Below, in pieces: positions 5,231 to 60,792 of a stretch of 64,000 nucleotides of DNA. A model generated the notes under the pieces. The model was not told where the DNA came from. It searched no databases and saw only the letters and a list, made by a program, of their open reading frames with translations. Numbering within the stretch: position 1 is the stretch's first letter; the number at the start of each line of letters is the position of its first letter. The stretch spans positions 620,001 to 684,000 of the forward strand of contig JBBPFI010000007.1 of assembly GCA_037974965.1 (NCBI GenBank). The letters are read 5' to 3'. Both the position numbers and the translations under genes were made by a program. Source of the DNA: Dacryopinax spathularia (taxonomy: Eukaryota > Basidiomycota > Dacrymycetes > Dacrymycetales > Dacrymycetaceae).

Positions 5231-5428
5231 TTCCGTTTTCAGATTTCTGTTGTGTATAGGAATAAGCCTATTAGGAGATGCAAGTGGTAATACAAAAATG
5301 GTGTGGAAACTGTCATCAACCAGTACAGGGAACGCATTCGTCATCCGACTCTCCTCATCCCACCCCAATCTTCCACCCATCTCCCCTCCAGGATAGCCGG
5401 GAAAAACAAAGCGCAGAATGTCTCACGT

Positions 5429-5808
5429 CTATTTGGCCTTGCCATCCAGCTTTTCCAAAAGATCTTTTGCCTCGTTGATCTTGCTGGCAAGGTATGGTGA
5501 TCCTCCACGGTCAGGATGGTTGGCAAGCATGATGTGCCGATGAGCATCCTTTAACCGATTTCGAATAGTTGCGTTATCCCTGCCAATATCGTCAGAGGCG
5601 CATCTCACCGAAATGCTTCAAATGGGACGAACTTGAGACCCAGGATGGCAATAGCCTCCTTCCTATCCATCTTCGCCTTAAATCCGCCCTTCACCCACTC
5701 CTCCTGAGCAGCCTTTCCTATCCTCAGCGCTCCAGTCCGAATGAGATGTCTGCCGGCGAGAATAGCGCCCAAGCCAGCAGCAGTGCCAAGGATGAGAGGT
5801 GTCGCCAT
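5429..5808 (-). CDS. PAM18: Mitochondrial import motor J-protein Pam18/Tim14
   Basis: The ATG at 5808 begins [19 protein letters not shown], a single hydrophobic membrane helix. It is followed by the Pam18 linker and a short J domain with the HPD motif ([12 protein letters not shown]) and the conserved [12 protein letters not shown] 53-nt intron (5580-5632) joins ILGLK to [14 protein letters not shown] exactly as expected for the family. The product is about 108 residues, normal for Tim14. Pam18 sits in the inner mitochondrial membrane and stimulates the ATPase of mtHsp70 during matrix protein import (family knowledge). An upstream in-frame ATG at 5871 would add 21 residues without a clear purpose, so the inner start was chosen. 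It is divergent from the SGD1 homologue, with 286 nt between starts. Confidence 0.93.
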
Positions 5809-39388: not shown

Positions 39389-40025
39389 CGCTGAAACGAA
39401 GAAAAGAGTGACCCCGATTTAAGCAAAGGAAGGGACGTCCTCTTCGTCCTCACTGCTCAGCCGCAGTCGTCGATCGTCGACCTTTGAGCTGATTTCCGTT
39501 GAGCTGAACGACCACGAACACCGCGACGACGACTGAAGGACGGAAGTTCGGACAGTGACCAAAAATGCGACGACAGCCAAAGGGGCGAGTGGCGATGCAG
39601 AAGCACCCACAACTCAACGGCACGGTCCGCACGACCACAAAGGAGGCAATTCCGATCCTCTGCTTTGGGATGGTTGTGGCAACGAGAGGAATACAAAGAT
39701 ATAATTGTAGCATAAGTTACACAAGCCTTATCTTCTTAACAAACAAACAAACAAAACAGCAAAAGCAAAACAGTTCATAGCAGACCTAGAAGGTCCAAGA
39801 ATTACTAGTCAAGTAGACTTCTCGTGTATCCTTTCAACAGTTCTCTTTACCTTTTCCTTCAGACGCGACGGCGTACTTCGAACATCAAGAAACTTGCAAA
39901 CAACAAACAGGGGGGTAGGGTAACCGTTAACAAACAATTAAACGGACAAGAAGAGGATACCAGTCGTGCTGATGGCGGCGGTGTCGACAGTAGTGGTGAT
40001 GGTGATGGTGATGTGTCGGTGGTGG
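39389..40025. other. Intergenic region, mL44 promoter and 3' end of WC-2-like gene
   Basis: This is a 637-nt gap. It contains an A-rich AACAAACAAACAAA stretch at about 39738-39775 and a GGTGAT triplet-rich run at about 39989-40012. Both sit where the 3' UTR of the WC-2-like transcript is expected. No gene is seen. Confidence 0.5.
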
Positions 40026-42407
40026 TCATACAAGTCCCGTAGGAAGCAAGAACATATCCTCCATACTCGGCAATTTCCTCAACAACGGCTGATCCAAGCT
40101 CTGCGGCTCACGGACAATGACCTTCAGCCCTCCCGCCTGATGTGTCTGTTGGGGCCAGGAGGACATGCCGACCATCCCACCGGTGGAATTCATCATGCCG
40201 AGCATATGGTGCGGCTGCGGGCCGCCGAGGAGCGTAGGGTGGAACGAATGTTGCTGGACGGCGGCAGGTTGGGGGACGTGCAACGGCTGCACTTGCTGCT
40301 GGAGAGTTGCGGGTTGCGCAATGGGCGAGGGGGACGACTCTCCTCGCTGTTTTTTCTTCCTTCCCTTTTTAGAGTCCTCGTCCTCGTCCTCGTCTGCGGC
40401 GTTGGCGCCTTTCTTCTTTCGCTTGCCACGCTTGAGCCGATCACCACCTTCCTCCTTCGCTCGCGTGCGGCTGTACCGCAGCCCGCAGGCGTTGCACAGG
40501 TCTTTATTCCCACTAGGGCCTTTACGCCACTCGGGTGAAGTGGTATTCCCGCACTGTACACAAGCCTGTACACCGCTAGGCGGACGAGTGGGGCGTTTTG
40601 GCTGATGCGGCGAGGGCTGACCGTTCGTCTCCGTCGACGGCCCGGCGGTAGGCTGGCCAGGCTGGGGCGAGGTGTGTGGCGAGGAGGTGCGCGGGAATCC
40701 GTACTGCCCTGTAGAGTTGGGGGATGACTGCGTCCCTTGCTGCTGGGGAAGGATCTGCGAGGAGTAAGGTTGAGGTGGGACGCTCGACAGTGGCGTAGGC
40801 TGCGAAGTCGAGAGAGGTGGTGAAGGCGGTACGCCCGATCCTGGCCAGCTGCCTGGCCCTGCCTGGCCCGGCTGACCACCGAAATTGCCGCTAGAGTATT
40901 GCGGTCCGTATGTCTGTGGCGAGTAGCCAGGGCCGTACGCACCGGGCGTCGTTGCGCTCGTAGGTGTATGATACCCGCCGTTCTGGTTGTTGTAGGAGTT
41001 GTTATTGTAGTATGTCTGCCGCAAGAGGTGTTGTGGCTCCATCGGCTGGCCGGGGAACTGGGTCCTATGACATGCAAAAACAATCGAGCCTGAAAAAACT
41101 TGGTCAGAGGGGAAATAACAGCAAATGTGAACAGGCCGTACCATAAGGAATGTACACGCTTTCCACCTCCGCCGTCATCCCGCTCAGCTGCCCCCTCCAG
41201 TTCGCCTTGTATCGCCTTGTACAGCTCGTCCGAGCCTCGTTCACCGCCCCCGTCCCACCAAGATTCACGTCCCGCGCAATGCCGCCATACTCCAGCACCT
41301 CGTAGCCGTTCAACGGCCAAGTAAACACGATCCCCCTCCCCTCGTTCCTCAGAATCTGGAACACCCGCTGCGGATGGTTGCCCACGAAATGCGAGTTGGG
41401 TATGAGCGCGTTGTACATGTCCGCCGCGTACTCGACGAGCGAGAGGTTACTGGGCGCGCCGCACCAGTTGGACCACTCGGACTTCTGCTCCTCACTTTGA
41501 TCTTCTAGCGGTTTCTTGTCTGCACGGTGGGGGCAACATTAGTATATGCGCGCCCGGGTGAATGGGAAAGGACTTGCCAATTATGGCATGGAAGAAGCAG
41601 AGGACGAGGTTGTCCCCGACGCAGTTGATGACGAGGTCGCAGATCAGGTACTCTTCGTCCAGACAGAAGAGCGGCGCGTCAGGAACAGGGGCGAGGTTCT
41701 CCGCACCGAGCACGCCTCGGATGTTCGTCAACCGGCGGTATCGTAGTCTATGCAGGAAGCAGCGTTAGGTTTCTGATATCTGCAAGTGCGTTTATGAACA
41801 TACCGCGTCACGCTGCCGTGTAGCGTCTTGCTCTTCACGACGCGCTTGAGATCCTCCACGGCCTTCTCCTTGTCCTGCGGATGAACGTAGTCGAGCAGAT
41901 GCGTGCCCAGCAAAGCGTTCGCCTGCTCGGACATGTGTGTGCTGAGAACCGGATCGAGGAACAAGAACTTCAGGGACTCTGAGAGAAGCGCCCAGTCTGG
42001 ATATGGTAATCAGCCTTAATGTTCCCCGTACGATGCGCATAGAACGTACAACACCGATGCTTGCCCACCGGCGGTACCTGAGCAGGCTTGTGGACGTTCA
42101 TCCCTCCGCTCCGCGAGCTTTCCCCGGACATGGAGAGATCCCCGTTGTCGTGGGTCAGGTGGGTCCCGTTTTGGTAAGTGATGCTCGGTGCGGGACCGTA
42201 TCCGTATATATTCGGATCGATCGATCCATTCGGTTGACCGGAGGGTGTGACTGCGTTGTTCGCGTTGGGAGAAGTTGTTAGTGTTGGTGTTTGTGTTGTC
42301 TGGGAGGGCGTAGAGGAGGGCGCGGGGATGGGAGGTGAGTTCTGTGTTCTGAGGGCGGACAGGGGTGTGGCCGGATAGGAAGGGAAGGACTGGAGAGAGT
42401 GGAGCAT
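40026..42407 (-). CDS. White-collar-2-type transcription factor (PAS + GATA zinc finger)
   Basis: The ATG at 42407 gives [20 protein letters not shown] and a Ser/Thr/Pro-rich N-terminus. A PAS domain follows: [19 protein letters not shown] and [20 protein letters not shown]. After a Pro/Gln/Ser-rich region comes one GATA finger, CVQC-x18-CNAC with the conserved TSPEWRKGP and [12 protein letters not shown]. Basic KRGKRKKKG follows, and the protein ends [13 protein letters not shown]. One PAS plus one C-terminal GATA finger without a LOV domain is the layout of WC-2/Bwc2. That protein pairs with the WC-1 blue-light receptor to drive light-induced genes (family knowledge). Five or so introns are present. 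The Helitron lies just upstream, transcribed in the opposite direction. Confidence 0.88.
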
Positions 42408-43087
42408 GGCTGAGTCCTTCAGCCAGGCTGCGAGCAAGAAAGAGCGGCAGATTACGCCGTCGAGAGTGAGGAACGATGAGGACGACGAGGACGCGTCGTT
42501 AGACGATGAGCAAAGGGGGGAGATGTATGCGCGATCGAAGTGGAGAAGCCCGTTCAGGGGGGCGAAGAGGGGGACGACGGTGCGATCGACGAAGGGGTGC
42601 GATCACCGAAAGACGTCGTCGGTGTGTTCCCTCCCAAAAGAAGGGGGGGCGAAAAGGGGCGTCGATCGATTTTCGCACGCGGAGGGAGTGGCGATTCCGC
42701 GTCGCTCCGTTCCTTTTCCCTTATAGAAAGAGGTAATCGAGAGGGGTGGTGTCCTCCCACCTCCACCCCATCCGTCCCGCGCGCCACGTCGCCGGGACCA
42801 ATTCCGAAGCAGTCTTTTCGCTGCTCGTCGTCGTCGTCGCTCCCCAGCCTCCTCTCTCTCCTCCATCTGCCCGTCAGTTGCTGCACATCGTGTGCGACGC
42901 GGGGCGACTGTCGACCTCAGCATCCCCCCCCCCCCTTCTGGCAACACCCCCCTCCCCTCTTTGGCCCCAGGAGAAGACCAGCAACCCGCGCTAACCCCCT
43001 TCGAGACGTCTCGGGCCCGCGTGCCCCCCACCCCCTCCCCCTCAGACCCCACCCCCAACCCTCCAACCCTAACCCCCTGGGCGGTGC
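42408..43087. promoter_or_regulatory. WC-2-like promoter and probable left flank or 5' end of the Helitron
   Basis: This is a 680-nt gap. Near the WC-2-like start the DNA is purine-rich with several GATC and CGATCG words (about 42531-42670). From 42740 it turns very C-rich on the plus strand, with a poly-C run of 13 at 42924-42936. The Helitron 5' terminus (TC preceded by A) must lie here or within the first part of its oxygenase gene, but too many candidates exist to choose one. Confidence 0.45.
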
Positions 43088-43340
43088 ATGCTGCCCGCGA
43101 TGCCTTGCCCGCCCAGCCTGGCTGACCGTTGGCCCCCTGCGCATGGGGCTGGCGGGCCATACGCGCGCGGGCGCATCGTCGAGCTCGCGGCGCGCGCCCC
43201 GCTCGAGGGAGGCGGCGACCTCCGGCTGCGCCTCCCCCTGTCTTCCCCGCCGCGCCGCCTCCCTCTCCCTCCCTCGCCGCCGCCGTCCCTCCCTCCCTCG
43301 CTGGGCCGCCCCCGCCCCCGCCCACCCACCCACCCACCGC
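43022..43340. repeat. C-rich low-complexity tracts with G-quadruplex potential on the minus strand
   Basis: Repeated runs of three to six C occur at about 43022-43080 and again at 43308-43338 (CCCGCCC then CCCA repeats). The minus strand therefore carries at least four closely spaced G-runs in each block, the pattern needed for G-quadruplexes. The blocks flank or overlap the first codons of the Helitron oxygenase frame. Confidence 0.7.
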
Positions 43341-44447
43341 TTCGCGGCGGGGGTGACAGACTCCTGCATGCCCCGGAACCCACCCACCTGCCTGCTCCTC
43401 ACACGAAATGGCGTAACCGCAGACACCATCGTAGCGCTGCTTCGGTTCAAGCCCATAACAACAAATGGCATGCTCATGTGGCGGAAATTGCCCGAAATGG
43501 CAACCCTGTTCAGGTTTTGGCGGAAAACCCAGGGGATTTCATTGTTCGGCCTCGGAGCAATGCAGCTGTCCGGCGAAAAATGGAGGAGTTGCGGCCTGGC
43601 TACCTGGAGGATGAGGAAAACATCCCGCTTGCACCAGAAAGGGGGGATTGGGTGTACAAGCTGGCCGATTCTGCTTCGCTTCCACCAGGATGGATGAACA
43701 CCCCTCCGGCCCTTCGCATCGACCAAGGCTTTCAGCCTTCTGATCGTGTCTACACACTCCTCCAGCGCTTTTTCAACACCCATCCCCAGGCCTCCCGTGA
43801 CAATCAGGCCAGGCAAACAGAGACCAGCTCGCCTATCTTCTACTTTGGCATTTGGCGGCGCTCCAGCCGCATTCCCCGTCTGACGGCAGACTCCACCTCT
43901 CAGTCACCCCAGTCTACTCGTGCCCTTGCTGCGTTGCTTCATGCAATCAATGCAGAGGTTGGTGATCGTATTCTGGGTTTGTTGGGGGCTCGTTTCCCCT
44001 TGCTGCTTAAGGAACGCAAAGCGTATGTGCCTTTTCCTCCTCCTTTGTTGACCTTTGCTGATTCGAGACAGGATCATTGACCATGCCTGGTCTCATTCGG
44101 CTTTATGGGATGACCCAGACCTTGCTGGACGTCACAGCTACCTTCGTCACTCTGCCTGGCTTACTCTTGCACTCATCCGAGGTGGCGGGAATGTGGTTCA
44201 TATCGACATGAGCGACGACATGCATCAGTTCACTGTCCTCTTCACTTATGGCGACTTCCAGGGTGGCTACTTCTGTATCCCACAGCTCAACATTCGGATT
44301 CCTATGCGACCGGGTCAGTTTCTCTTTGTCAAGACACGCCTCATGGTCCACTATGCCACCCACTTTGAAGGCGTGCGCTATGTGTTTACTGGCTTCATGG
44401 ATTCCAACCTATGCAATGACTATCGTGCTTCTGTACCTGTCAAATAG
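43088..44447 (+). CDS. TET/JBP-like 2-oxoglutarate/Fe(II) dioxygenase carried by the Helitron
   Basis: Exons 43088-44022 and 44072-44447, joined over a 49-nt intron, give up to 436 residues. The C-terminal domain has every active-site mark of the 2OGFeDO fold. The Fe(II) HxD is in NVVHIDMSD (about His355, Asp357). A glycine-rich beta turn YGDFQGGYFCIPQLNIRIP follows, then MRPGQFLFVKTRLMVHYA with the distal His (about 405), and GVRYVFTGFMD with the 2OG-binding Arg (about 414). The wording GDFxGG..(L/I)PQL.I..P.RPG fits the TET/JBP class, which oxidises methylated pyrimidines in DNA, better than prolyl or AlkB hydroxylases; that is a judgement by eye. The N-terminal part (KWHAHVAEIARNGNPVQVLA, RKMEELRPGYLEDEENIPLA) is unrecognised. 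The first ~100 codons lie in C-rich low-complexity DNA, so the true start is probably further in or in another exon. Confidence 0.7.
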
Positions 44448-44619
44448 ATTACTTTATATGGTACCCTTTTCCCATGACACGGCTGGCCCACATGGACATG
44501 TTCCGGCTTTCCGGCCCGGCACTATGAACCGTGGGATTGTTTTGCACCGCTTTCCCTGGGGCATGGGACCCACGCATAAAGCCCCATGAAGATGGGCCGT
44601 GTACGAATCAAGCTGAATC

Positions 44620-45593
44620 ATGTCCGCCATCTTTACTGGCATTGTGGGATGCACCGACTGGCGGCCCTCTATTCCCGGCTCTCGCTCATGGACATGCACG
44701 GCCATTTTTCTGCTTCCTGTGAACTCGGGAAACCCCATCACCATCACGGATGAAGAGTTCAACGGTGTCCTCCACTACTTTCCACCTCCCGGTGCAGCTC
44801 CGCCTGAGGACGGTGTGTACTATGTCACGGCAAAGCTGGCATCGGCCACACCTGCACTCGTCCCAGGGGAGAATGCCACGTCTGAAGGTGCAGAGTATGA
44901 ACTGGACTCGCTTGTGGTATGTCTTCTCTTTTGTCATGGCCATTACGGGACACGTATGCTGATGTTGCTTCTCAGTTCTTGCCGCAGGAGTTTCGAAAGT
45001 ACGATGTTGCCCCTATTGCAACAGTGGTCGGCCGGCCAAGAAACATCCATGATCGCAGCTTTGACATCGAAGCTCAGCCCTACATATTCAACGGCAAACG
45101 CATAGCCAGGTTTGCATGCCACTTCCCTCAAGAGGGACGTTTCGCCAAGAATGTGCCTCGGATCACCCATGTTGCCCTTTTGCATGTTACTGGCCTTATC
45201 ACGGGTCAAGCCCTGCCACGCGAGGGCAATCCGGAACAGCAACTGTCTTTGCGGGTATGACTGCCGGTTGTTGCAGAGGGATATTGCGCTCACACATTAG
45301 TGGCATAGATCCTCGATGTGGACTTTGTCAACATGGCATCCGGTACTGCAGCTTCTCCTACACCTATTACCCCTGGAAAGCGCACCAACTTTTTTGCGGG
45401 CGGTAAACGATCTGCCAGCTCTTCCACAATGCCACCATCACCGTCCCCTCTTGCAAGCAGCAGCAGTCATCAGGATTCTGCGAACCTGTTTTCTGACCCC
45501 TCGCAAGAGCCCATTGAGGAGGAGGAGGGGGATGAGACGGTCTTTGGCGAACTCCCCCCCTCCAAGAAGGCAAAGCGTGGGAAGCAGAAATGA
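44620..45593 (+). CDS. Helitron accessory protein with OB-fold-like region, acidic segment and basic tail
   Basis: Exons 44620-44916, 44976-45254 and 45309-45593 sum to 287 codons (286 residues). The N-terminus MSAIFTGIVGCTDWRPSIPG runs into alternating beta-type segments (WTCTAIFLLPVNSG, DEEFNGVLHYFPPP, DGVYYVTAKLASATP). A second block reads VVGRPRNIHDRSFDIEAQPY, RIARFACHFPQEGRF and THVALLHVTGLITGQ. This pattern of closed beta-barrel strands resembles single-strand-binding OB folds seen in RPA-like proteins carried by some plant Helitrons. No diagnostic motif proves it. The C-terminal third is Ser/Pro-rich, then acidic (EPIEEEEGDETVFGE) and ends in a basic KKAKRGKQK, a likely nuclear signal. 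It lies between the oxygenase and the replicase in the same direction, suggesting a shared role in transposition. Confidence 0.6.
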
Positions 45594-45739
45594 TTCCTTT
45601 GTCATTCGGGCCGTTGCTGTCCTGTCATTTGAATATGAACTGTATCAGGCTTAGTCTGTTCCAAGGACACGGTGCATATAAGGAATAAGCGCTTCTGTGG
45701 GATTACCTTGCAGCCCATGCCTGCATCTCCATCTATCCC

Positions 45740-48700
45740 ATGCCTCGCACACCTGCGCAAGAACGGGAAAGATACGCCAGGCTGGCTGCAGATCCCCTTC
45801 GCCGTGCAGAACATCAACAGCGTAACACAGCACAGCATGCCATTCGCCGGCAGAATCAGCGTGCATCAGAAACTCCAGAGGCACGCATGGAGCGTCTTGC
45901 TCAGAGGCGTGCGCAACGTCAGCGACAGTGCCAAGTGCACAACCAGCGGGCTTGGTGGCAGACCTTTCCTTTGGAGTCAACCGACAAGGCACGCCAGCAG
46001 GCAGTGCATCTTTGGAACCGAGTGTGCCAACTCTGCAATGCTCCCCTCCTGAGGTACATTCCTTTTTGCCACCCACCTTATCAACGTATGCTGACTGGGG
46101 ACAGCGGGGAGCTCCCCACATTCTGCTGTAACAATGGACAACGGCGACTCCCGCCTTTGCCACACCTGCCCCCTCAGTATGACCTCTTCCTCCATGATGC
46201 TCGGCTATCCTCTCTCTCCCGCAAGCTCAACGGTCTCTTTGCTTTTACTGCCATCGGCACAAGCGCCTCATTTGTTCACAATCTTAATGCACCCTCCAAT
46301 GTTGTCCTTACCGGTCGCACCTACCATCGCATGCTCGACATTGCGGATCCCTCCCATTCCATCCATTGGTTTCTGTATGATGAGCAACAACGGCAAGCGC
46401 ATGGGACCATGCAACGTGTGCCACCTGCTTGGATCCCAGCTCTCTCTGCCGCCCTGCATGATTGCAATCCATATGTGCATGAGCTGCAACGGTTTCGAGC
46501 TGATGAAAACATGGAGGATATGGTGCTTGAGCTTCCGGAGCACACAGCAACAGGCGATTTTGCTGCAATCATGCATGCGAACAACTCCACACAGATCCAC
46601 CCACGCAGCATCCTTATCCGTCGCCTTGGTAAGCCTATACTCCTGTCCATCCCACACACTTGAGCTCACCTATGGCAGGCAATGACCAGCCATCTTTCAT
46701 TAGCATCCTCAGCCGCCATTATGAGCCACTTCAGTATCCTCTTCTCTTTCCCCACGGCACTCCAGGGTGGGGGCTGCTCATGGAGGATGCACACGATATG
46801 CAACGCCGTCAGCGCTATCCACATGGTTTGACTCAGCTTGAGTGGTACCGAAGTCGCCTGGTGTCAGAAGACCGGTTTCTTATCTTTGGACGCCTCACCA
46901 ATGAATATTTGTGCGACATGTTTTCGCGAACTCAGGAACAAACCCTGGACTATATCCGGCGTGCACGCACCCTGCAAGCAGCACAGCGGCTGCGGGATCC
47001 AGAGTTTCCACAAGAGCCAATTGACATCGAGCTCCCGGCCAGCTTCACGGGCTCGCGCCGTTGGGCAAGCGAGCAAACGGCCGACTCGCTTGCGCTGGCA
47101 AGAACAGATGGAAAAGCAAGCATTTTCACAACCATGACATGCAACCCAACCTGGCCTGAAATTACGGCAAAGCTACGTCCAGGCCAGAATGCCTCAGATG
47201 TTCCGATGGTAGTTGCACGGACATTCAAGCTGCGCCTGCAGCATCTCCATCACCTTCTGCGCACACGCCTTGGAAAAATTGTATACATTGTGCATGTGGT
47301 GGAATTCCAGAAACGAGGGTTGCCACATGCCCACATCGTTCTGAAGGTCCATCCTGAACTCCCAATTGATCAAGTCGACCGCCTCATCCGTGCCCAGCTG
47401 CCTGCTGATCCTCGCCTGGCTGCCAAAGTGCAACGATGGATGACACACCCCCGCAATCATCTTGATCCTGCTCATTACAGCCGTTGCAACCGAGATGGCA
47501 AATGCATCTATGGCTTTCCCCATCCTATCACCCCAACCACTTGGGTAGATGACAAGGGCTTTGTCCACTACAAGCGTGACAGCGAGGCAGATCGGTGGAT
47601 CTCCCCCCATATCCCCCTTTTTGTGGATGAGCTGGATTGTCACGTGCATGCCGATATTGTCGCCAGCACACACGTGTTCATCTACCTTTACAAGTATCTG
47701 TTCAAGGGGGCAGATCACACGCTATTCAGCATTCTGGAGGAAAACCGCCCTGCAGTGAACGAGGTGGCAGACTACATCAGAGGACGGTATCTATCAGCAA
47801 CCGAGGCAGCATGGCGCATCGGTGGTTTTGATATCATCATGCGCTCTCCTGCAGTCACGCGTCTTTCAGTCCACTTGGCACAAGACAACTATGCCCAATT
47901 CTTTCGCCGGGACAATCGCCACTCTTCGGCTTCCACCCTGCTCCGATACTTTGCGAGACCACAGAATGCGCTTTTCTTGCCATTGCGGTATGAGGAATAC
48001 TTTGCGCAGTACATCCTTGACACGTGGGATGGCAACCCCCTACCACCTGATTCACCACATCATTTGGAAGAGGAGCGGCAGGGGATGCCACGCAAAGTGA
48101 TCAAGAAGCGCACCACAGAACATCGCACACGGTTGCAAAGCCTGTCCCCATCCACAGGCGATGTTTTCTATCTGCGCTGCCTCCTTCAACATGTTGCGGC
48201 AAGCAGCCATGAGCAGCTCTACTATGTTAACGGCATCCGTCATGATTCGTATGCTTCGGCAGCCCAAGCTCTTGGGCTGTTTGATGATGAAAATGAAGGG
48301 CATTATGCAATGCGAGAGGCAGTTTTTGACTTCCGCACACCATCCCAGCTACGATTCCTCTTTGCCCGCCTCGTTCTGGAAGGCTACCCTGCTATCCCAC
48401 TCTGGCAAGTGTTTGCCGATGACCTAGCAGCTGACTTCCTTGAGCACATGCATCACTCCAACCTAGCATACGATGAAGCTCTGCTGGTGCTGGAAAACCA
48501 CCTTGAGGAAGGAGGAAGAGACCTTGCTTCTTATGGTCTTCCCCAACCTCAACGGCGCTCGCCGGAGGTCGCACGGGAGCTGGCAGCTTTTGCAAACAAG
48601 CTACGCACCTTGGAGGAGGAGGCAGCAGCTGGCTTGAGAGGCTTCAATGAAGAACAGCGTGCTATCTATGCCCATCTGATTGGCCTGCTCCATCAATATA

Positions 48701-50136
48701 ACGAGGATCACACCCCCTTCCCACCACAGTTCATTGAAGGCAAACCTGGACGAGGCAAGACCTTTCTCATTGCAACATTGACGGCATACCTACGCAGTCA
48801 AGGCTGCATTGTCCTCCTTACTGCCTCCACAGGGATTGCAGCCTCCAATTATGAGCGCGGCCGCACAGCACACTCTGTCTTTCGTATTCCTGTACAAGCT
48901 GTGAGCCAACCATCCTTTGTTCCATGCATGTCTGGCTGATCGCGATTGCAGGACAACAGCAACATCCAGTCACATGTCCACCCCACCTCTGTGCGTGCGG
49001 AGCTGATCCGTGCTACAAGCCTCATTGTCTTGGATGAGCTTCCTGGTGCAAACAAGACAACGGTGGAAGCGATTGATGCCCTGTGTCGAGAGCTCACAGG
49101 AATCAACAGCCCATTTGGAGGCATTCCATTCCTTGGTCTGGGTGACTTTCGGCAGGTCGCCCCAGTTGTAGAGGGTGGTGGGGAGACGGCAGCCTACGAA
49201 GCTTCCATCCTGTCTAGCTATCTGTGGCCTGCCTTTCACGTCCATTCCTTGCATGAGCCCATACGGAACCGAGGCGACATGGGCTTTGCTGCCTTTGTGG
49301 ATGCCATCGGGGAGGATACATCGCAAGCCCGCATACCTCTGCCATTCCTCCAATCAACCGATGACCTAGGTCACGTACTGGACTTCCTGTATCCATCGGC
49401 AATTCTCCATAACCCAGCAGCTGCAATGCGCCGGGCTTTCTTGAGCCCAAGGAATGTCCTGGTTGATGAGTTCAATAGACAGGCCCTGGACCTGCTTCAA
49501 TCCGATGAAGGTCAGTACGCATGCCAGCACAATTGTTACTCTTGACTGACAGCCATTCAAGTGATTTATCACAGTGCAGACATGATTAAGGAAGGGGAGG
49601 ATATTCCTTTGCATGACCCACGACATCTACCCGAATACCTAAACACGCTTGACTACCGTGGCATCCCCCCTCATTGCCTTGCGTTAAAGGTGGGGGGAAT
49701 CTGTGCCCTCACCCGGAATCTCTCAACAGAGAAGAAGCTGGTTAAAAATGCACGAGTGGTGATTCACGCCCTGAACCAGCGCTTCGTACAAGTCCGCACC
49801 CTTGGCCAGCAGGGCAACCTTGGCAGTGAGCTCCACTGCATCCCACGCATCCGGTTCGCATTCACACCATATCGGGCAAGTTGGACAGTGGTGCGCATCC
49901 AGCTGCCCCTTCGCTTGGCATATGCCACCACATTCAACAGTTGCCAAGGCTTAACACTGGATAAAACGGTGCTGGACTTCCGTACTGATGTGTTTGCACA
50001 TGGACAGTTGTATACTGCACTTACCCGTGTGCGGCATCGGGATGACTGCCTTTCCTTTTTTGGTGTGGAATCTGACAGATTGGTTGCAAACATACAAAAT
50101 TCGAAGCTCATGCCTGTACATACACCAGTAGACTAA
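45740..50136 (+). CDS. Helitron RepHel protein: HUH/Y2 Rep endonuclease fused to PIF1-type helicase
   Basis: Exons 45740-46628, 46679-48900, 48952-49510 and 49562-50136 total 4,245 nt, exactly 1,414 codons plus stop. The N-terminus has an Arg/Gln-rich helix and a Cys cluster (CQLC...CCNNGQ) followed by the Helitron-like N domain. The Rep domain has the metal-binding HUH motif RGLPHAHIVL (about residue 507) and the two catalytic tyrosines in FIYLYKYLFKG (about 631). The helicase has Walker A GKPGRGKT (about 982), TASTGIAASNYERGRTAHS, Walker B LIVLDELPG (about 1062), GDFRQVAPVV, TFNSCQGLTL and YTALTRVRHRDD (about 1374). Every catalytic motif is present, so an active enzyme is plausible. It nicks and unwinds the element for rolling-circle transposition. 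The introns split conserved motifs cleanly, showing the element uses the host spliceosome. Confidence 0.95.
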
Positions 50137-51984
50137 TTTAACTCAGTTGTCAACCCTACCGCTCTCTCTCCGCGCGGCCCGCAGGGATCACCCCTTGTAT
50201 TGCAATCACCATCCCCCAATCAACGACTTCCACTTCCCACCGCTGGGGACCCGTCTCACATGTATAGCTGCCAACTTGACTTCCCTGTACCTCATTGCTG
50301 CGCAGTTCGTCGATTGGTTATCCAACCCATTTGTCCACCAATATCGGAGAACGGCAGAGCACAGCAACGAACTCATCCTACTGCCACCGAAGCAAGGGGT
50401 GGCATGTTTGACATTACAAAGCTGGGGTTTTCACTTATTGCAAAAGTAACCATCTCAATTGAATTAATATCGACACTCGACTCGCCAAGCGAGGTCCCTG
50501 CCTATGACCCTGACCAGCCTTCTTTTCCGCCCGCTGTTCCTTCGCTCGTCTCAATTGGCCCTCAATCAGCGGACAGCGTCGTCCTGCGCCTGCTAGCACA
50601 GCCTTGTCCCCTTTCATTTGTTCATGGACTCTCTCTTCCCCTCATTTCTCGCCCACCCACATGCACTCGCTCGAAGCCACATGTCTCGGCCTAGCCCGCT
50701 ACGATGCTGGCATCCAATAGCTGATCGCTAAACGAATGCCTCGGACTTTGGCGCTCTCGTAGCCCAACTGAATACAACCCTTTGGCATCCATCAAGCTTA
50801 CGGGCGCTCAACCCTGCCTGTCCCTTTGGAGCAACTTGCACTGTCAGTCAACACCGCACTGCCTCGCTCTCTTGATTCCTCTCGGGCCGGCGCCATCTGA
50901 CGACCTGTCTTCCTCTCAACTCCCGCCTGATCCTGGGCCGGTCGTACGAGTGCTGTTCTTCTTCCTAATAATGAGCCTTGTACTCCTGAAGCTCAATATA
51001 GTAGCACGTTCTCAAGAAAGTGGAGAACGCTCTCTCCCGCATTCTAGTCCCAACCAACGACGCCCTCGGCAAAACCCGGAAGATCGCTCGCTCGCTCGAT
51101 CATCCAGCACCTAAATAACGTACAGAATCCGATAATGCAAAACCCAACAATACAAACCCCCAAACGCCGAAGTCCCTGGATAGCCCGAGCACTTCGCCGA
51201 CCCTTCTACTTCCAACAATAGCCAGCAATCTACAAAAATATCCGGTTCTTCCCAGGCTCATACCCCACACTTCCCAACCCCCTTCTAATAAGGAACATAT
51301 AAGTTGATGGAGGATGGAGTGCGCAGCATGGCTCGTAAACCCGGGTTTACAGCGCCGCTGTTTGGGGTTTTGCTTCTGGTGTGGAGAGTGTTTGGGGCTT
51401 CGTCATGCTTTCTGTTTACTCCTCACGCTGGCGACTGTGGTCTTCGATAGGAGAGAGAAGAAGCGGTCATGTGAGCTGCCTGGGCGGGAGCCATGCGCGC
51501 CTTGGCGCTTAACTAGCCCAAGAGTACTTCGACAATGCTTTGGCAGCGCCGCCCATGTTATCCCTAAAACGAGCCCTTCCCAAGACGAAGTCGCTCCGCT
51601 CCACACTCTTCGACCAACTGGTGGACTGCACTGGGAAGCACACGCCCGCACTGCCCCCTTCCAGTGAGCTTACAAAAGCCTGACAAATCCCACTCAATTG
51701 CCTGGTTTGGGAACCTGTGCGCTTACATAAGCCTGTTTCGGGCAGAGTCGCTTCTGCGATCCTGTTACTTTTTGCTTGGGGCTTGGGTTGGGTAAGCCGG
51801 AAGGGGGTTGGAATCCCGTTGTATACCAGCGGGATGGGATCCGCACTGATGGAGCGATGGAGCGGAAACACGAGGGAATGATACTGGATCTATGTGTGTA
51901 GCGGGCTTAAATGATACACCGATGTACAAAAAGCAAAACAAAACAAACTGAAGTCAATAGCAGTCCTGGTCGAGCAATCCACCA
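50137..51984. other. Long non-coding stretch holding the Helitron 3' end
   Basis: This 1.85-kb region between the RepHel stop and the next gene has only weak open frames. The first part (50150-51080) is rich in CTCTC and Pro/Ser-like codons. Structures seen: hairpin GATGC-TG-GCATC (50703-50714) before CTGA/T at 50721-50724; hairpin CGTTCTC/GAGAACG (51007-51029) before CTAG/T at 51044-51047; the palindrome GTAAACCCGGGTTTAC (51335-51350); and a hairpin at 51815-51833 followed 12 nt later by CTGA/T at 51846-51849. Any of the three hairpin-plus-CTRR sites could be the Helitron terminus. Confidence 0.5.
51335..51350. repeat. Perfect 16-nt palindrome GTAAACCCGGGTTTAC
   Basis: This sequence equals its reverse complement and lies in the non-coding stretch right of the Helitron. 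GTAAAC on each arm also resembles a forkhead-type core (GTAAACA). No CTRR follows at the distance usual for a Helitron end. Confidence 0.8.
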
Positions 51985-52915
51985 TCAAACTGCAGCAGTA
52001 CTGGTCGGAGCGGGCAGCGTATCCTCTGGCCGGTTCCCGACCTCCTCCGCCCGACTCTCAAGCCTCACGGCCGCCGCGCCCGCCGCACTTCCCAAGTCCT
52101 GCTCACCAGGCTCGGTCCCGCCAACCACGTGCTGCACCGCAACGTCGAACATGACCTGATTCGGCGCATACCGCTCGAATGTTGGTTCTCGGCCGTACGC
52201 GATCTCTGCTGTGAGGATGAGTATGTCGGCCGTGAGCCCTTTTACGGGGGTGTGCGAGCTCCGGAATCGGTGCATGCGGTAGGCTGAGTCCCATAGCCAG
52301 GCTCGGTCGCTCGTATTCTGTCGCACGGAGACTCAGTCGTCGTCCTCCTGGATCCCGAAAGGCAAGGGGCAAGGTGCAAGGGACGTACATGCAGATCCTC
52401 GTCATATGGCCAGTCTTCGGTCCCCTTTCCCGCCAATGGCTCGTGTCGCATGATCTCCGGATCTAGCACGGCCTCCAACGGGTGGTAGAAACATGCGTCT
52501 ACCTCCCCTGCGTTGGGCACGAGCGTGTTGAGTAGTGAGGGATCTGTAAGCAGGGCGACGCAAGGGGTGACGATGAGCTTGAATTGGGATAGGAAAGGTG
52601 GGAGGAGGACGAGGTTGTGGATGCTTGGATGGGATAGGGGAAGACCGCATTCCTCAAATGCCTCTCGCCTCTATGTTCACATTGAGTCTCGGAGTGATGA
52701 AGTGAGGGCATCAAAGGACGTACGGCAGTCGTGAACGGGTCCTTCTCGCCTGGATCTACCTTACCTCCAGGGAGGGCAGTCTGACCAGGATGACTCCTTA
52801 GCTGCTTCGACCGTGTCGTAAGTAGCACCCATAGTCTTCCCTCTGTCTCAAAGAGCAGCACCAGTACCGCAGCGAGCTTTTGATGCGGAGGGACATTGCT
52901 GATGCTGTTTGGCAT
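51985..52915 (-). CDS. CoA diphosphatase, NUDIX (PCD1/NUDT7-like)
   Basis: The ATG at 52915 starts MPNSISNVPPHQKLAAVLVL. The family-specific segment LLTTRSKQLRSHPGQTALPG leads into the NUDIX box GGKVDPGEKDPFTTA-RREAFEECGLP, split by an intron after ALA. The longer spacing before REA and the upstream LRSHPGQ are the marks of the CoA-diphosphatase branch. Later exons give VTPCVALLTDPSLLNTLVPN and WLWDSAYRMHRFRSSHTPVK, then a Glu/Ala-rich tail to the stop at 51985-51987. The enzyme cleaves CoA and oxidised CoA to phosphopantetheine and 3',5'-ADP, usually in peroxisomes. A C-terminal SKL-type signal is absent (the end is STAAV), so its location is open. Three short introns are needed. It is divergent from pICln. 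Confidence 0.9.
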
Positions 52916-53254
52916 GCCGCATCATCAGCGCCAATGGCCTCTAATTCTGCGACACATGGCTTACGTATATATCGGACTTGGTGACTGATACTCTATCAAC
53001 CTCTCTATCGCTTCTCTAGAAGAAGTAGACAGCGTAGCCAGTGCATTATCAAGCTTTGTCGTTGTATGCGTCCCATTGACGCCGTTCGCGATGACGGTCG
53101 ATTCCATACCGGTTCAGTCCGCGCCGCGCGTCAAAATCACGCGCACCAAACTCAAGTTCAGAGCTAGGGTCCAGAAATTTACGCCACCCCAACAGTATTC
53201 TGCTGCACACCAACATAATCTTTGACTTGTACTTGCAGGACAACAACCACAGGC
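52916..53254. promoter_or_regulatory. Divergent promoter of CoA diphosphatase and pICln genes
   Basis: This is a 339-nt gap between opposite start codons with no recognised gene or clear motif. The pICln leader may contain an intron, because ACTTGCAG lies just upstream of its ATG. Confidence 0.4.
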
Positions 53255-53977
53255 ATGCCTACCGTACCGATATCGACACCGCCTACGTATGTTTCTGTTG
53301 AGGAACACCAGGCGTTGACTTCGTCAACTCCGGATTCGTTCAACTCTATCCCACCGGTCTTAAGGCACAAGGAGGAGAACGTGACTATCTCCCTTGAGCC
53401 TCCCCTGCCCGGACTGGAGGGGGAAAGCATAAAGGGGACACTCTACGTTATCGAGAGGTGCACCGCTCCACCAGTCTTACATAGAGATTAGTACTGAACT
53501 TCTTGGGACAGTGCATTGGCGTTCATATCCGCTGCTGGGACGGGTTTCCAGATTGACTACCCGTCTATAACGCTGCATGCTGTGAAACGCGCTCCTACGG
53601 GCGTGTCTATCTACTGCCAATTGGACGAGACGCCCGAAGGGCAACAGCTATCGGAAGACGAAGAGAATGAGATGCGTGAGCTGTCGATCATCCCTGAGTC
53701 AGAAGCTAGCGGTGCGTACGATCAATGACTCGTTCGTGCTGTGCATTTCTCACCCGGTCACGCAGTGGAACCCATCTTCGAGGCACTCTCCCTCTGCGCA
53801 TCTCTACATCCCGACAAAGCCGGCGGAGACGACGAAGATATGGAGGACGAGATGTTCGCCGATGCGGACGAGTCGGGATTCGAGACGTTCACGGGAGGGG
53901 AAGACGAGGAGCTCAGTGCGGTCGGTCGGGTACGCAACGATTTCGTTACTCCGGATTCGAGGTTTCGGCCGTATTGA
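53255..53977 (+). CDS. pICln/methylosome subunit (ICln family)
   Basis: Exons 53255-53457, 53512-53711 and 53766-53977 sum to 205 codons. The PH-like domain contains GLEGESIKGTLYVIESALAF, ISAAGTGFQIDYPSITLHAV and IYCQLDETPEG. The acidic C-terminus has DDEDMEDEMFADADESGFET and ends SRFRPY. The wording FQIDYPSITLHAVKR is the hallmark of ICln proteins. In animals pICln binds Sm proteins and hands them to the PRMT5 methylosome for snRNP assembly (family knowledge). The acidic loop that mimics the Sm partner is present. The length of 204 residues is normal. Confidence 0.9.
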
Positions 53978-54261
53978 AGCCTGAGTCTGCTACAACTCGC
54001 GTGTGTGAAAATCATATAGGCTGCATTGGCGCATTTGGAGTCGATCATTGTATATCCGCATGGTGGGGAGCCGGCAGCTGCGGATGCAGCTAACGGTGCA
54101 AGCGAACGAGAAGGGAGTGAGGAAGCAGAACCAAGAGTTGCGAGGACGGACAACCTGCCAAATGGCGCTCATTGAATGATGTTGATCGGTCAGCTAGCTT
54201 CGGTATTGATTGAACCCAGATTAAGGGGATAATGTTGTACGGGTATAGCTAAGCAGGCTAA

Positions 54262-57200
54262 TCAAGTCTCTACCACCTCAAACTCTTCCTCCGCTTCCTC
54301 CAAGTCAGATAATTCCCGCGCTTGAGCATCATACTCCACGTCATCTTGGTAACTGTTGAACGATTCGTCGCCGTAGTCAGGGTCATCGTCTCCCTCGGCA
54401 TCTTCCTCTTCTTCGCCCTCCTCCTCTTCGCCCTCCTCCTCCCCGTCCTCCTCTTCTTCTTGGTCGTCACCATCCTGCCGCTGCGCAAATCGCTTGGCCC
54501 ACTCGGCATTGCCGCTCACGCTGGTGGCCACAGGCAGCTGGACAGGCTTGAAAAGGTTGTTACCATTGCCGTTTGAGCTCGAGGCAGGTGGCGTCCACCC
54601 TTCCGGCTTAGCGAAGATACTACGCGGTGCTGCAGGTGCGAACAAGCCCGAGACGCCTCCAGAATGCATCCCAAACGTCCCGCCGATAGGGGCAGGTGAG
54701 GTCGACTTCACAGGCGGCGATACGCTGCCTTGTGTTGGCTGATCAGGCGTGCCGAATCCGCCCGGGCCGAAAGCAGACTTCAGACCGATAGGCGAAACTG
54801 GAGAGGGTGCTGCAAGACCGCTGCCAGATGAAGTCGATGCCGGAGTTGAGGAAGTTGTAGCCATACCGAACCCACCCGGACCGAAGGCTGACTTCGAGCC
54901 GGAAGCGGCAGGTGTCGCAGAAGGCATTCCGAAGCCGCCAGCGCCGAATGCAGATTTAGAGGCCGAACTTGACTTTCCGCCGAACAGCGCTTGAAGGGGC
55001 GGGGAACGAACAGTGGACGACGCCAGGGGATTTGCGGTCTGTGGAGGCGTCGTGGGCGACGCGGGCGACGCAACCTCCTGTGAGGAGTTCGCGACGGCTT
55101 TATCCGAAGACAAGGTGACTCCGGACTTCTTCAACAGGTCCGAGAACGACGGCAGACCAGACGGCCGAGGGCCCGCCGCTGCATCCTTCGTAAGGGACGA
55201 GAAGTCAAACGCTTTCTTCGTTGTCGCCGCTGAGTTTGTCGTTTCCGTCGCTTTGACACCTTCTTTCGACGTATCGTTAGCCTGTGCAGCCTTTGACAGT
55301 GCGGAGAAGTCAAATTTCTTGGTCTCTTTCCCCGATGACGGTGAAGGAGAAGATGCTTCGGGTTTAGCCGGAATGGAGACTGTCATTTCCGGGCTTTTGT
55401 TAGGCGTTCCGGCCGTCTCAGCCGTGCTGCTCGCCTGACGAGCTGGCTCCGGTTTGTCTTCCCTTGGAGAAGAGGAGAAAGCAGGCGTCGTGATCGGCTC
55501 ATCCTTGTTGTCACTCGCTTCAGGCTTCTTCGCAGCAGGTCCAGGCTGCGCGTCGGCAGGCTGGGGAGGAATCTTGCCGAATATCCCCTTATTTTCTGCA
55601 GGTGCACCCAAAGTAGCAGCCGGCGACCCGGTCTTCTGCAACGGTGTGGCGACCGCTTCAGGCTGCTTAGCTGGCGGTGGCGGCATTGCAGGCTTTAGCT
55701 CGGTAATGGACGACACAGGAGATTCCACTTTGCTGGAGGTCGACGCAGGCCCTTGAATGGGTGATTTCCACGGCTCCGTTGTAGGGGAGCCGTGTTCAGA
55801 TCTCCGACGTCTGTTCATCTCCGCCAAGCTCGCCATGGCATCCTTGAAGTTCGGGCTCTGGGAGGGATCGGTTGGATGTGAGGGATTGGTTGGACTGGAG
55901 GGGCCGGCTGTGCGATTCGGCGGAGCTTGGAAGCTAAACGTTGGATTGGGTGCCACCTTGCCGGGCGTTCCAAGACTGCTCCATGCTTGCTTCGCCTGTT
56001 CACGCAGCTCTTCAGCAGAAGGAATATGAGCTGGCTTTCCGGTGAGCGGAATGAATTCTGCGGGCGTTTTGATGGCAGCTTTGGGTAATTGCGGGCCAGC
56101 ATCCTTCTTCACCGGCGGGAGGGAGCCAAGGAAGTCTTTCCGAGGCAACGGCGCAACAGAACCAAGGGGTACGACTGCCGCCGCGGCAGGCGGAGCGAAA
56201 GAGGGCCATTGCGGTGCTTTCAGTGCCGCCAGTGGGTTAACCGTCCCTCCAGACTCGCCGACGGTCTTCACCGGCGTAGCGAAAAGGACCTGTGGACTTG
56301 GCTGGGGAGCCGCCTGCCCCTCCGCAGTTGCCTGCTCGCCGTGCGCTTCTCTGCCTTTCATGGCAAACTTCTCGCCATGCGCATGTCGATGGCCATGCCT
56401 TCCTGCACCGGGTCCAGGCGGCCCAGTGACCAAGGGCTTGTAAGGCGCATTCTTCAGTGCCTCCCACCCAGGTGGTAAAGGGCCGGAGAAGCTGAACGGA
56501 TTTGCAACAGAGGTTGCTGGCGGCGTGGCTTTGAACTCGGCTGGGGCTGTCTCCTTCTCCGGCTCTATCTGCTTCATTTCTGTCACAGGAGCCTTCACAG
56601 TTGACCCACTCGCCACAAGGGAGGGCTGCCCGGCGGGAGGATTTGGTAAAAGACTGGCGGGAGAATCCAGGGACTCGACCAGTTGAGGTGGAGAGATCTC
56701 ATCGGAGAGCGGAGGGCCATCTATTGTCAAGGGGCCATTGCGGAACGGCAGGATAAGGCCCATATCCGAGACCGGAGGATCTTGATGGGTGGCATGGGCA
56801 ACGGTTCGAGTTACGGTATTGACCAAGGGCGTTGTTCTCACGTTGAGAAATGCCTGCTTCAGCCGAGCAGCACTCTCTTTCGACGAGATCCGGGGCGCCC
56901 TAGTTGGTTCCGAAGCAGCTCGAAGCTCCGATGGACCATCCGTCGTTTGATCAGCTTCTGTAAGGCTCGGCTGAGCAGGTAGTTGATCTCGATACGCCTC
57001 CCGAAGGGCTTGCACCTTCTTGCTTAACAGCTCTAGGGTTGCAAGTTCGGTTGCGGCCGCGGTATCCAGATTCCGTATCGTGCGATTGACGGTATCCAAA
57101 GCAGGACCGCTGTACGGGATCAGCAAGGAAAGCTTTGTACAAAGTGTCTAGGACTCACGTAAGAGGTTTTGCGCCGCTCTTTCGCTGTATCACTTTCGTC

Positions 57201-60070
57201 CTCATGGCAGTCACGTAATCTTCAAGCCTCTCGAGTTGATTATGGACCAACTATACCAGGGTCAGTTCAATGCAGATCAAGAAGTTCGTCTTGTAAGCCT
57301 ACTTACCAGGGAAGTGTGACGCAGCTTGGCTTGATTCTCACTCTGCTCAGGTCCTAACTGGCGTATCCGCACCACGGTATCATAATCCTTGTCGTCAAGA
57401 GCGCGTTTCAGTCTCGCACATTCTTCCTTTTTCGTCTCAGCTGGGCAGAGAGGTGAGTTCACATGGTCCGGCGAGTGACAAGCCATACCTTTCAGCACGA
57501 GAGAGTCCAATTCGAGAGACCACCGCCGATACTGCAGCGTGCGTTCCTTAAGAGGAGCAGTCTCAGCTTGGATCTCGTTGATAACAGCCTTCAGAACTTG
57601 GAAGTCGGCAAAGTTCCATCGCTTCCTATCAGCGAGATCTTCCACACCTTTGCTCAGTGGCGATGGCGTCTTGAGCTGCACGTGATACAGGTGACATCTC
57701 GCAAGTGTCTCGCGAACCTGTAAGACATGAGGCTACGAGCAAGCAAAGAGAACGAGAAATACGAACCTCGCGCAATCCTTCTTCTACCACGAAACGAGCT
57801 TTTTGCAACTCTTCAGCAGTACTTCGCACCGGTGCGTTATCAGGATCGCTCGTCTCCAGGCTGAACTTGGGTGTCCGCTGGTGCGGCCAGCCTCCATTGA
57901 AGGGAGGTTCGGGCGGAGTGATGGGTTCCTCCTTTACTGCTTGGCCAACAGTGGTACCCGAGGAGGATGCGCCCAGTTTGCCCAGGGTGGGCATGACAGC
58001 CGGAGAGGCTGGCGGCGTCGGTTCTTTCGGTTTGGTTGCACGGGCCTTCACCGCCGCGGCTGGGGGGACTGGAGCCGGTGCACTAACTGGAGTAGCCGTC
58101 CCGAGTAGGGTAGATGGAGTAACCGGCGCACGAGCAGAGGATTCAGCGGATTGAGCCCCGGGACGAAGAGACAATCCCGTAACGGTATTGGCAATGCCGC
58201 CATCTGGCAGGGAAGGTCTCGTCCCCCAATTAGTGTATTCTTTGCTCGCTGTCTCCTCGGCAATCTCCGCCGCACGGAACCTCTCTGGCTGAGCAGCGGT
58301 CTCCTCTTCTTCATCCGAATCGGGCTGAGCCGGCCTCAGCCGACTATCAGATACGTTTACAGGCGAACCTGCAGCAGGCTGTGCGGCTGGAGGTGCAGAT
58401 TTGTCAGATGTTGTCCTTATGAAAGCCGGCGGGGTGCTTTGTGGCGTCGTGGAGGTCGGAACGGGCGTCGATGAGCTTGCAGCAGTCGTCGCAGCCGCTT
58501 TCTTCGCAGGAGTAGCAGGCAACTCTGTCTTGCTTTCACTTGCTTCAGGCTGTTTTGTAGCGCTTGTAGGAGGTGCGGTCTTCGGTGTCACCGTCGGGCG
58601 TTCCTCCGACTTGACAGTAGCGGGCTTGGCAGAAACTTCAGCCTTTTCGGCGGATTTGGCTACTGGTCCAGCCGGCGATTCGATCTTGGGCGCAGGGGCG
58701 GTGGACTGCTCAGTCTTCTGCACTGGCGCGGACAACGTCTCGGGCGCCTTAGCCGATTGAGAGGGTGTGACAGGTTTCTGTCCAGTGGTGGACTCCTTTG
58801 CAGGTACGGCTGGCGCCGAAGGCGTCGCAGCAGCGGTTTCGGGCGCTTTCGCAGGCGCCGAGCTGGATGCCGTCTCCGGCTTCTTGGCGAAGACACTCTT
58901 GAAGAAGGCATCGGTGACCGACTTGGAAGGAACGTACGACGTGGAAGAAGCGGAGGGGAAGCCGGACGAAGCAGGCGCAGGTGGACTACCGAAGGTGTTC
59001 TTAGGTGATGTAGACGCTGTTGCGGCAGCGAATGCGGACGGCGGGGGTGGCTCGACTTTGCCAAAACTGGGAGTAGGAGAAGTGACTGATGGGGCTTTTC
59101 CGAATACAGGGGCAGGAGCAGATGCTGCTGGTGCCGAGCCGAATGGCTGAGGCTGAGCTGGCTGAGCTGGACTGGTCGTCGGCTGAGCGAACGGAGATGG
59201 CTTGGGCTGTCCAAACGTGCTTTGTGCGGGAGCACCGAAGGTCATTGCTGCTGGAGCTGCGGGCTGTCCGAATGTGCTCTGAGCCGGTTTGCCAAAGGTC
59301 ATCGATGCGCTCGACGGTGGTCCCATCCCACCTGCACCAAACGCGGACACCACCGGTTGAGGAGAGGTGGCAGGAGCACCCATCCCTCCGGGTCCAAAGG
59401 CCGATTGTGCCACGGGTGCGGGTGCACCCATCCCTCCCGGACCGAACGCCGACTGTGTTGCTGCTGGAGCACCCATACCGCCCGCTCCGAATGCAGATGG
59501 TCTTGCTTGACCAAATGTTGGAGCGGCAGGTTGGCCGAACGCATTCGTACTCGGTGCAGCAGGCTGGCCGAAGGCGTTCGTAGTGGGCGCAGCAGGCTGA
59601 CCGAAAGCATTGGTCGGTGGCGCAGCAGGCTGACCAAAACCGCCGGATGACGATAATGACATCTGCCCGAATGCATTAGGAACAGATTGAGACTGCCCGA
59701 ATGCATTTGTGGCGGGCTGAGGTTGACTAAAAGCGCTGGGTTGAGGTTGACCGAACGCTGATGTCGCTGCCGGTGCACCGAAGGCATTCGTAGCTGGTCG
59801 GGGTGCGCCAAAGGCATTTGGAGCTGGCCCCAACACCGCGGCCTCGCTCTCCAGCCCAGACATATCAAAATCATTGCTGCCAGAGGGTGCATCGAAGATC
59901 GAGCGGCCACTGCCCGACTGAGCGATATCCGCGAAAGACAGCGGTTTTGAAGGAGCGATCGCGCTGAACGCGCCCGGCGCGAGCCCTGTCGGCTTGGACA
60001 GAGTGCTGTTCCCAATACTTTTCTGCGCCGCTGCCGCCCATATCGACGACGACGGCGCGTTGCTGTTCAT
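54262..60070 (-). CDS. FG-repeat nucleoporin, Nup159/Nup214-like
   Basis: The ATG at 60070 gives MNSNAPSSSIWAAAAQKSIG. A dense FG region follows at once, with NAFG, SAFGQPQ and tandem SAFGPGGMGAPA units (about 59840-59280). A long Ala/Pro/Lys-rich spacer comes next. The central exons encode a coiled-coil block (RWNFADFQVLKAVINEIQAE, RIRQLGPEQSENQAKLRHTS, LDTVNRTIRNLDTAAATELA) resembling the Nup159/Nup214 coiled coil that joins the Nup82 complex. A second FG region follows (SAFGAGGFGMPSA, SAFGPGGFGM), then a very acidic tail ending EEFEVVET at 54262. Nup159 sits on the cytoplasmic face of the pore and activates the mRNA export helicase Dbp5 through an N-terminal beta-propeller, which is not seen here. 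Low-complexity sequence makes the family name less certain than the nucleoporin call. Confidence 0.75.
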
Positions 60071-60792
60071 CGTCGTCGCACAGTGTCCGTTCTGAGTGGT
60101 GGATCGATGGTGGCGAACGACGCGGCGCAGAGAAAGAGCCAACGCTGACTCTCTGCCTCAGTGCCTCAGCGTCGCGTGGGTGAACGTGACCGAAGGCCAA
60201 CGGAGCCAGATTTGGCCAGACTGGAAATTGAGTCCGAGCAGAGCCACCTAGATCGTAGTCATCCGGCCACATAGGGGCAATCGGGCACATCATACGTTGG
60301 GCCTGCGCTGCGGAGTACTGTAACTCACTAGTCAAGGCCACTTTCGAAGACTTTCGTACTCACGCTACAAAGCTGATATAAGAAAGATCCTGTCTTGTAA
60401 GTAGAATTGTGCACACATGCTTGAGAAAAGCGCATGCCCATATCTTCGAGAATGGAACCAAGGGTGGATCACACTGTTGGACTCAATTACGAGCAAAACA
60501 GTACTGGAGGATACCCAGCACGCAGATTGTCCCCAGGAGTTCCTCATGCACGGGCATGGGGCGGCGTCGTGAGGATGATCAGGACTAGTCAGGATTCGAA
60601 AGTGGGACAGTTCAGAGACCACAGACCATGTCTGAAGCCAAGGGATGGAACAGCTTTCCATGTTTACAATCTCAGGTCATATTGCCATATTGTATCACCA
60701 TAGGGAGACATGTACGTATAGGGCCGGCAACGGGATCCGAGGATTACAACAATGATACAGAGACAAGGAAAGAGAGAAGGGAAAGGCAACAT
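60071..60792. other. Intergenic region, nucleoporin promoter and histone H4 3' side
   Basis: This is a 722-nt gap between two minus-strand genes. The part near 60071-60350 would be the nucleoporin promoter and leader. The rest is presumed H4 downstream sequence. No gene, tRNA or clear histone stem-loop was recognised. Confidence 0.45.

Follow-up and report, generated by a model that had tools for sequence, protein, structure and literature searches.

A probable Helitron with a TET/JBP-like dioxygenase gene upstream of RepHel and a common CpG-depletion footprint in Dacryopinax spathularia

Three spliced genes without in-frame stops lie in close succession on the forward strand of a 64 kb stretch of Dacryopinax spathularia DNA (hereafter referred to as the window; GC 55%). 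The first of these (gene 1, 43580-44447, with an intron at 44023-44071) encodes a TET/JBP-like 2OG-Fe(II) dioxygenase, the second (gene 2, 44620-45593, introns at 44917-44975 and 45255-45308) a protein of 286 amino acids without a family match and the third (gene 3, 45740-50136, introns at 46629-46678, 48901-48951 and 49511-49552) a RepHel transposase of 1417 amino acids. The introns of the three genes span 42-59 nt. Genes 1 and 2 are separated by 172 nt and genes 2 and 3 by 146 nt, and the arrangement of three open, spliced, same-strand genes with gaps of 146-172 nt, as described in the initial annotation, is borne out by these gene structures.

The open frames extend over 1417 codons in gene 3, 286 in gene 2 and at least 272 in gene 1. 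The longest chance run in 300 simulations of 7.1 kb, on one strand, had a mean of 190 and a maximum of 356 codons, and by length alone neither the frame of gene 1 nor that of gene 2 exceeds what chance produces. Gene 1 is backed by homology and codon usage, and gene 2 by codon usage. When the codon usage of gene 3 served to score all six frames, the proposed one ranked first in each of the five pieces from 43580 onward, and it was also the top of the six in 43364-43579. The three exons of gene 2 scored 6.6, 9.6 and 0.4 bits, each the best of six frames, with exon 3 barely positive.

Coding-like sequence starts at approximately 43364 and the first in-frame methionine downstream, a candidate start, is found at 43580. 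The start of gene 1 had earlier been placed at 43088, and this candidate was rejected, as 43088-43363 is a low-complexity, GC-rich flank (300-base windows reach 79%) with tandem C-rich repeats, where each of the six frames has a codon score below zero, and falls outside the compositional block described below. Imperfect C-rich repeats of telomere-like appearance, including CCCTAACCCC, occur at 43026-43078 of the window, to the left of the putative element as delimited by composition. The left neighbour (40026-42009, reverse strand) is white-collar-like, its ORFs matching a GATA zinc finger (1e-13) and, weakly, PAS, and a NUDIX ORF (52499-52921, reverse strand) lies on the right, followed on the same strand by two long stop-to-stop ORFs of 961 and 842 amino acids (54262-57147 and 57629-60157) with no Pfam match at 0.01.

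Gene 3 matches the Pfam families Helitron_like_N (E=3.9e-33) and PIF1 (E=2.1e-42), as well as the bat Helitron Helraiser (PDB 7lcc, E=1.4e-132), with 38% identity in the Rep region. The HUH (PHAH), two-tyrosine (YLYKY) and Walker A (GRGKT) motifs are all intact. Judged by these matches, gene 3 is a complete RepHel, in which an HUH/two-tyrosine Rep is fused to a PIF1-type helicase, in agreement with the earlier description of the last gene as a complete Rep-helicase. Helraiser has the same combination of an HUH/Y2 Rep and a PIF1-type helicase; the 7lcc entry, however, is the RepHel transposase alone, whereas the Dacryopinax locus has two more genes upstream. Helraiser is a Helitron1 element, and the strong match to it only suggests that gene 3 belongs to Helitron1.

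The assignment of gene 1 draws on CcTet of Coprinopsis cinerea, a relative of the AG type (PDB 7vpn, 7w5p, 8jkk). Four sequences were listed in a single-sequence PDB search, two of which are CcTet (E=1.7e-5 and 1.8e-5, the latter for 7vpn), the other two being chance-level matches (E 0.29 and 0.43); CcTet is, at the level of sequence, the sole credible PDB match of gene 1. The alignment with the matched CcTet segment scores 31.1 bits, a score that none of 1000 shuffles reached (maximum 10.9), the segment having been picked for this comparison since it had matched already. It pairs one 120-residue segment of each protein without gaps at 23% identity, and in it the HxD (HID), the distal histidine and the arginine of gene 1 pair with His326, Asp328, His376 and Arg385 of CcTet. 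Gene 1 keeps the two histidines and the aspartate of the metal site as well as the arginine that binds 2OG, and the full HxD...H...R active site noted in the initial annotation is thereby confirmed. Replacement of each of the four CcTet residues with alanine abolished activity, according to the text of PMC11040006. The Pfam Tet_JBP profile (PF12851) matches gene 1 at E ~0.001 with 18.4-18.8 bits, failing the curated cut-off of 34.9 bits, and TauD is matched with similar weakness (E=0.0038 and 0.0026). The safe name for the product is therefore TET/JBP-like: the TET/JBP type read earlier from the sequence finds agreement in the CcTet match and in a Tet_JBP profile score under the cut-off. A prediction by AlphaFold for exon 2 alone, without an alignment, had a pLDDT of 38. 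Gene 1 also matches, across its catalytic region, the phage family phrog_24024 in PHROGs (E=4e-5), which has no assigned function; this family may be an unannotated phage TET/JBP enzyme.

The alignment further places an aspartate of gene 1 at the position of CcTet Gly331 and a threonine at that of Asp337. The dual 5mC/6mA activity of CcTet relies on Gly331 and Asp337, whereas in conventional TETs the 331 position is occupied by Asn or Asp and the 337 position by Thr or Ser, as in hTet2 (Asn1387/Thr1393), NgTet1 (Asp234/Ser238) and CMD1 (Asp350/Thr354), as given in the text of PMC11040006. The bifunctional pocket of CcTet is absent from gene 1, and with Asp and Thr at the aligned positions the product is therefore predicted to be a conventional 5mC-selective enzyme without the 6mA activity of CcTet. 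CcTet lost its 5mC activity when Asp337 was replaced by Thr, and the threonine of gene 1 would therefore be compatible with activity only if the aspartate at the 331 position takes over; the residue at this position is described as compensating in other TETs (PMC11040006). Two of the enzyme types described for fungal transposons in the text of Kojima 2025 (PMC12730594) differ from gene 1 in their residues. The hallmark of the PE type is HxE in place of HxD, which is absent from gene 1 with its HID. In the AG type, as given there for the Kyakuja-borne enzymes, CcTet position 337 is occupied by Asp and position 331 by Gly or Ser, residues that are also absent from gene 1.

A 2OG-Fe(II) dioxygenase with these features might, alternatively, act on another base modification or on another substrate and not on DNA methylation. 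The low identity to CcTet, the sub-threshold Pfam score with an equally weak TauD match and the inactivity of CcTet D337T on 5mC (PMC11040006) are in line with such a role, and the text of Kojima 2025 allows further activities for the divergent types and describes a different product for CMD1 (PMC12730594). We nevertheless regard it as fairly unlikely, as the PDB holds no other credible match than CcTet and gene 1 has pocket residues similar to those found in conventional TETs.

For the complete gene 2, Pfam and PHROGs gave no family, only matches of the weakest level. When exon 3 was searched by itself, Pfam returned a single match no better than chance (E=0.21), and the PDB matches were likewise at chance level (E 0.32 and 1). 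Similarity to RPA or OB-fold proteins was not detectable in Pfam, PDB or PHROGs, and an AF2 prediction for a single exon without an alignment was uninformative (pLDDT 43); the description of this protein as OB-fold-like in the initial annotation found no support, although the protein may still have an OB fold that these searches missed. Profile searches, which had been proposed for both upstream proteins, thus returned a weak Tet_JBP match for gene 1 and no OB/RPA match for gene 2. The C-terminal tail of the gene 2 protein is basic. RPA-like proteins of plant Helitrons, as described in the text of PMC4683698, are likewise products of an extra Helitron gene, but differ from gene 2 in that no RPA/OB similarity was detectable for gene 2 in the databases searched.

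The three genes stand out from their surroundings by CpG depletion. The observed/expected (O/E) ratio of CpG is 0.69, 0.70 and 0.65 in genes 1, 2 and 3, respectively, against 1.00 (40000-43000) and 0.99 (52200-55000) in the host flanks, with intermediate values to the right of RepHel (0.86 in 50137-51000 and 0.92 in 51000-52200). TpG and CpA O/E values in the three genes are 1.27-1.46. Only three of the 32 two-kb windows of the stretch have a CpG O/E below 0.8, and these are the ones at 44-50 kb. The share of NCG among the NCN codons of Ser, Pro, Thr and Ala is 0.13, 0.17 and 0.11 in genes 1, 2 and 3, and 0.25-0.39 in eight host ORFs; for NCA, gene 3 alone has a clearly elevated share (0.40), the values being 0.21 for gene 1, 0.25 for gene 2 and 0.11-0.23 for the host. 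Relative to gene 3, synonymous usage scores -0.010 bits per codon in gene 1 and +0.040 in gene 2, with all 11 host ORFs lower (-0.25 to -0.059), although some of the host comparison ORFs are without a Pfam match and may not be genes; the cross-validation values of gene 3 itself (0.084 and 0.103 bits per codon) lie above both genes 1 and 2. This codon-usage contrast is nearly gone once codons containing CpG, TpG or CpA are removed, and the footprint is therefore read as mainly methylation-type decay.

The extent of the footprint was delimited with a strand-symmetric Markov model of orders 1 and 2, trained on gene 3 only. Without a length penalty the top-scoring segment was 43365-50464 (order 1) or 43364-50444 (order 2) and holds all three genes; the putative element is given here as the CpG-depleted block 43364-50464 on the forward strand. 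With 0.01 bits deducted per base the block shrank to 43448-50464 (order 1) or 44342-50127 (order 2), and with 0.02 bits to 45696-50127 in both orders. The extent of the block thus varies with the penalty, which can drop gene 1 or both genes 1 and 2, and its right edge is blurred, since the order 2 model also picks a separate small segment at 51615-51997 (+11.8). In comparison with host windows of the same length, overlapping at a step of 50, the gene 1 core (43390-44447) scored +13.4 under order 1, above all 978 host windows (maximum -1.4), and gene 2 scored +14.4, above all 982 (maximum +2.3); the corresponding order 2 values are +10.1 against a host maximum of -2.3 and +15.0 against +1.2. 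The intergenic stretches between the three genes also score positively (+5.3 and +4.2), without a host-like gap. Freely chosen short host segments reach +12.0 (59107-59891, order 1) and +12.2 (5279-5550, order 2), nearly as much as gene 1 or gene 2 scores in total when taken singly. The signal per base amounts to 0.013, 0.015 and 0.029 bits in genes 1, 2 and 3, respectively, and the weaker signal of genes 1 and 2, about half that of gene 3, is in part what a model fitted to gene 3 would be expected to give.

These results suggest that the three genes have a common past as methylated DNA, which also fits two adjacent methylated elements. In such a nested or adjacent arrangement, gene 1, alone or together with gene 2, could be what is left of another TET-carrying DNA transposon beside which an ordinary Helitron inserted, with the depletion common to all of them as methylated transposon sequences. 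Common CpG depletion marks methylated repeats generally and not a single element, the signal of genes 1 and 2 is below that of gene 3, a length penalty can cut both off, and TET/JBP genes occur in nine non-Helitron transposon lineages in fungi, as described in the text of PMC12730594. Such an origin is nonetheless considered unlikely, since Pfam searches with ten of the flank ORFs (40.2-52.9 kb) revealed no transposase, the positively scoring intergenic stretches leave no host-like interruption and the layout is compact and on a single strand. The three genes are probably one element that was once methylated. Of the Helitron packaging three genes that the initial annotation proposed, the RepHel and the TET/JBP-like gene are thus upheld by homology and, indirectly, by the common CpG depletion, while the OB-fold part is not.

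Helitrons characteristically have a 5' TC and a 3' hairpin with CTRR and insert without duplicating their target; the ends of the putative element were sought to the right of RepHel and in both flanks. A scan of 50137-52300 for a 3' hairpin followed by CTRR gave one candidate (51846), which is no more than background density, the whole 64 kb having 11 such candidates on one strand and 17 on the other, and no repeat common to both flanks exceeded 11 bases, giving no convincing ends. A second copy was not found within the window. A search for relatives gave none in the viral contigs scanned and two RepHel loci (L001 and L002) in the genome contigs scanned, with 29.5 and 25.9% identity to gene 3, respectively; genes 1 and 2 have no tblastn match to these loci at E up to 1. 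As both are distant from gene 3, they say little on the gene content of fungal elements and were not counted against co-mobility. The two contigs (L001, 1381-6291; L002, 1-4290) are filed in bacterial MAGs (Bacteroidetes and Roseiflexaceae), probably as a result of eukaryotic contamination or misbinning. A degraded, immobile insertion, in which the open frames are incidental or have been put to use by the host, would agree with the failure to find ends or a second copy in the window and with the long exposure to methylation implied by the CpG loss. Against this, all three frames are intact, as are the Rep and helicase motifs, and a dead or domesticated locus appears distinctly improbable.

The initial annotation knew of no established class of Helitron with a TET/JBP gene, a view superseded by Kojima 2025 (PMC12730594), the text of which describes five families of TET-carrying Helitron1 from Puccinia graminis, TET-carrying Helitron1 elements from five Pezizales species and a TET-carrying Helitron2 from Agaricus bisporus. 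The Dacryopinax locus is probably a TET-carrying Helitron of this class already in print, sharing with the PU-type Helitron1 of P. graminis, the Pezizales Helitron1 and the A. bisporus Helitron2 the combination of RepHel with a TET/JBP-like gene. According to the same text, the TET-carrying transposons do not code for any extra protein that would modify bases further, and its main text makes no mention of OB-fold or RPA. The enzymes of the Pezizales and A. bisporus elements are, by implication of that text, of the PE type with HxE, in contrast to the HxD of gene 1, which thus differs from the Agaricomycotina example, A. bisporus Helitron2. An HxD motif with an Asp/Thr pocket in the enzyme of a TET-carrying Helitron is possibly new. 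Helitrons have been associated with methyl-CpG oxidation in Laccaria bicolor as well, where a Helitron family shows enrichment of 5hmC/5fC at CG sites according to the text of PMC8889193; this case shows that Helitrons can be substrates of such oxidation and does not imply that they carry the enzyme.

Taken together, the locus is likely to be one autonomous Helitron of ~7.1 kb, which carries a TET/JBP-type 5mC dioxygenase and the small gene 2 protein upstream of RepHel and whose enzyme would counter CpG methylation. RepHel would, as expected from its family, mediate rolling-circle transposition of the element, the host would mark the element by CpG methylation, as indicated by the loss of CpG with gain of TpG and CpA, and the TET-like enzyme would oxidise the 5mC of the element and thereby relieve silencing or slow methylation-linked decay, an anti-silencing role already proposed for TET-carrying elements by Kojima 2025 (PMC12730594). 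The element is CpG-poor despite the enzyme, and therefore the protection would be incomplete, or the enzyme would work on expression rather than on mutation. A more far-reaching version, in which a mushroom-type Helitron captured a fourth kind of TET/JBP enzyme (neither AG nor PE, with a conventional pocket) together with gene 2 as its dedicated partner, forming a self-demethylating module that clears 5mC from the replication intermediate, is speculative and rather doubtful.

Fungal transposons with their own TET-like enzymes would represent a direct counter-defence against silencing by methylation. The presence of an intact enzyme and a methylation footprint over the same 7 kb makes this idea testable at a single locus, and a rolling-circle element whose enzyme is predicted to have a conventional pocket is relevant to the frequency and the source of enzyme capture.
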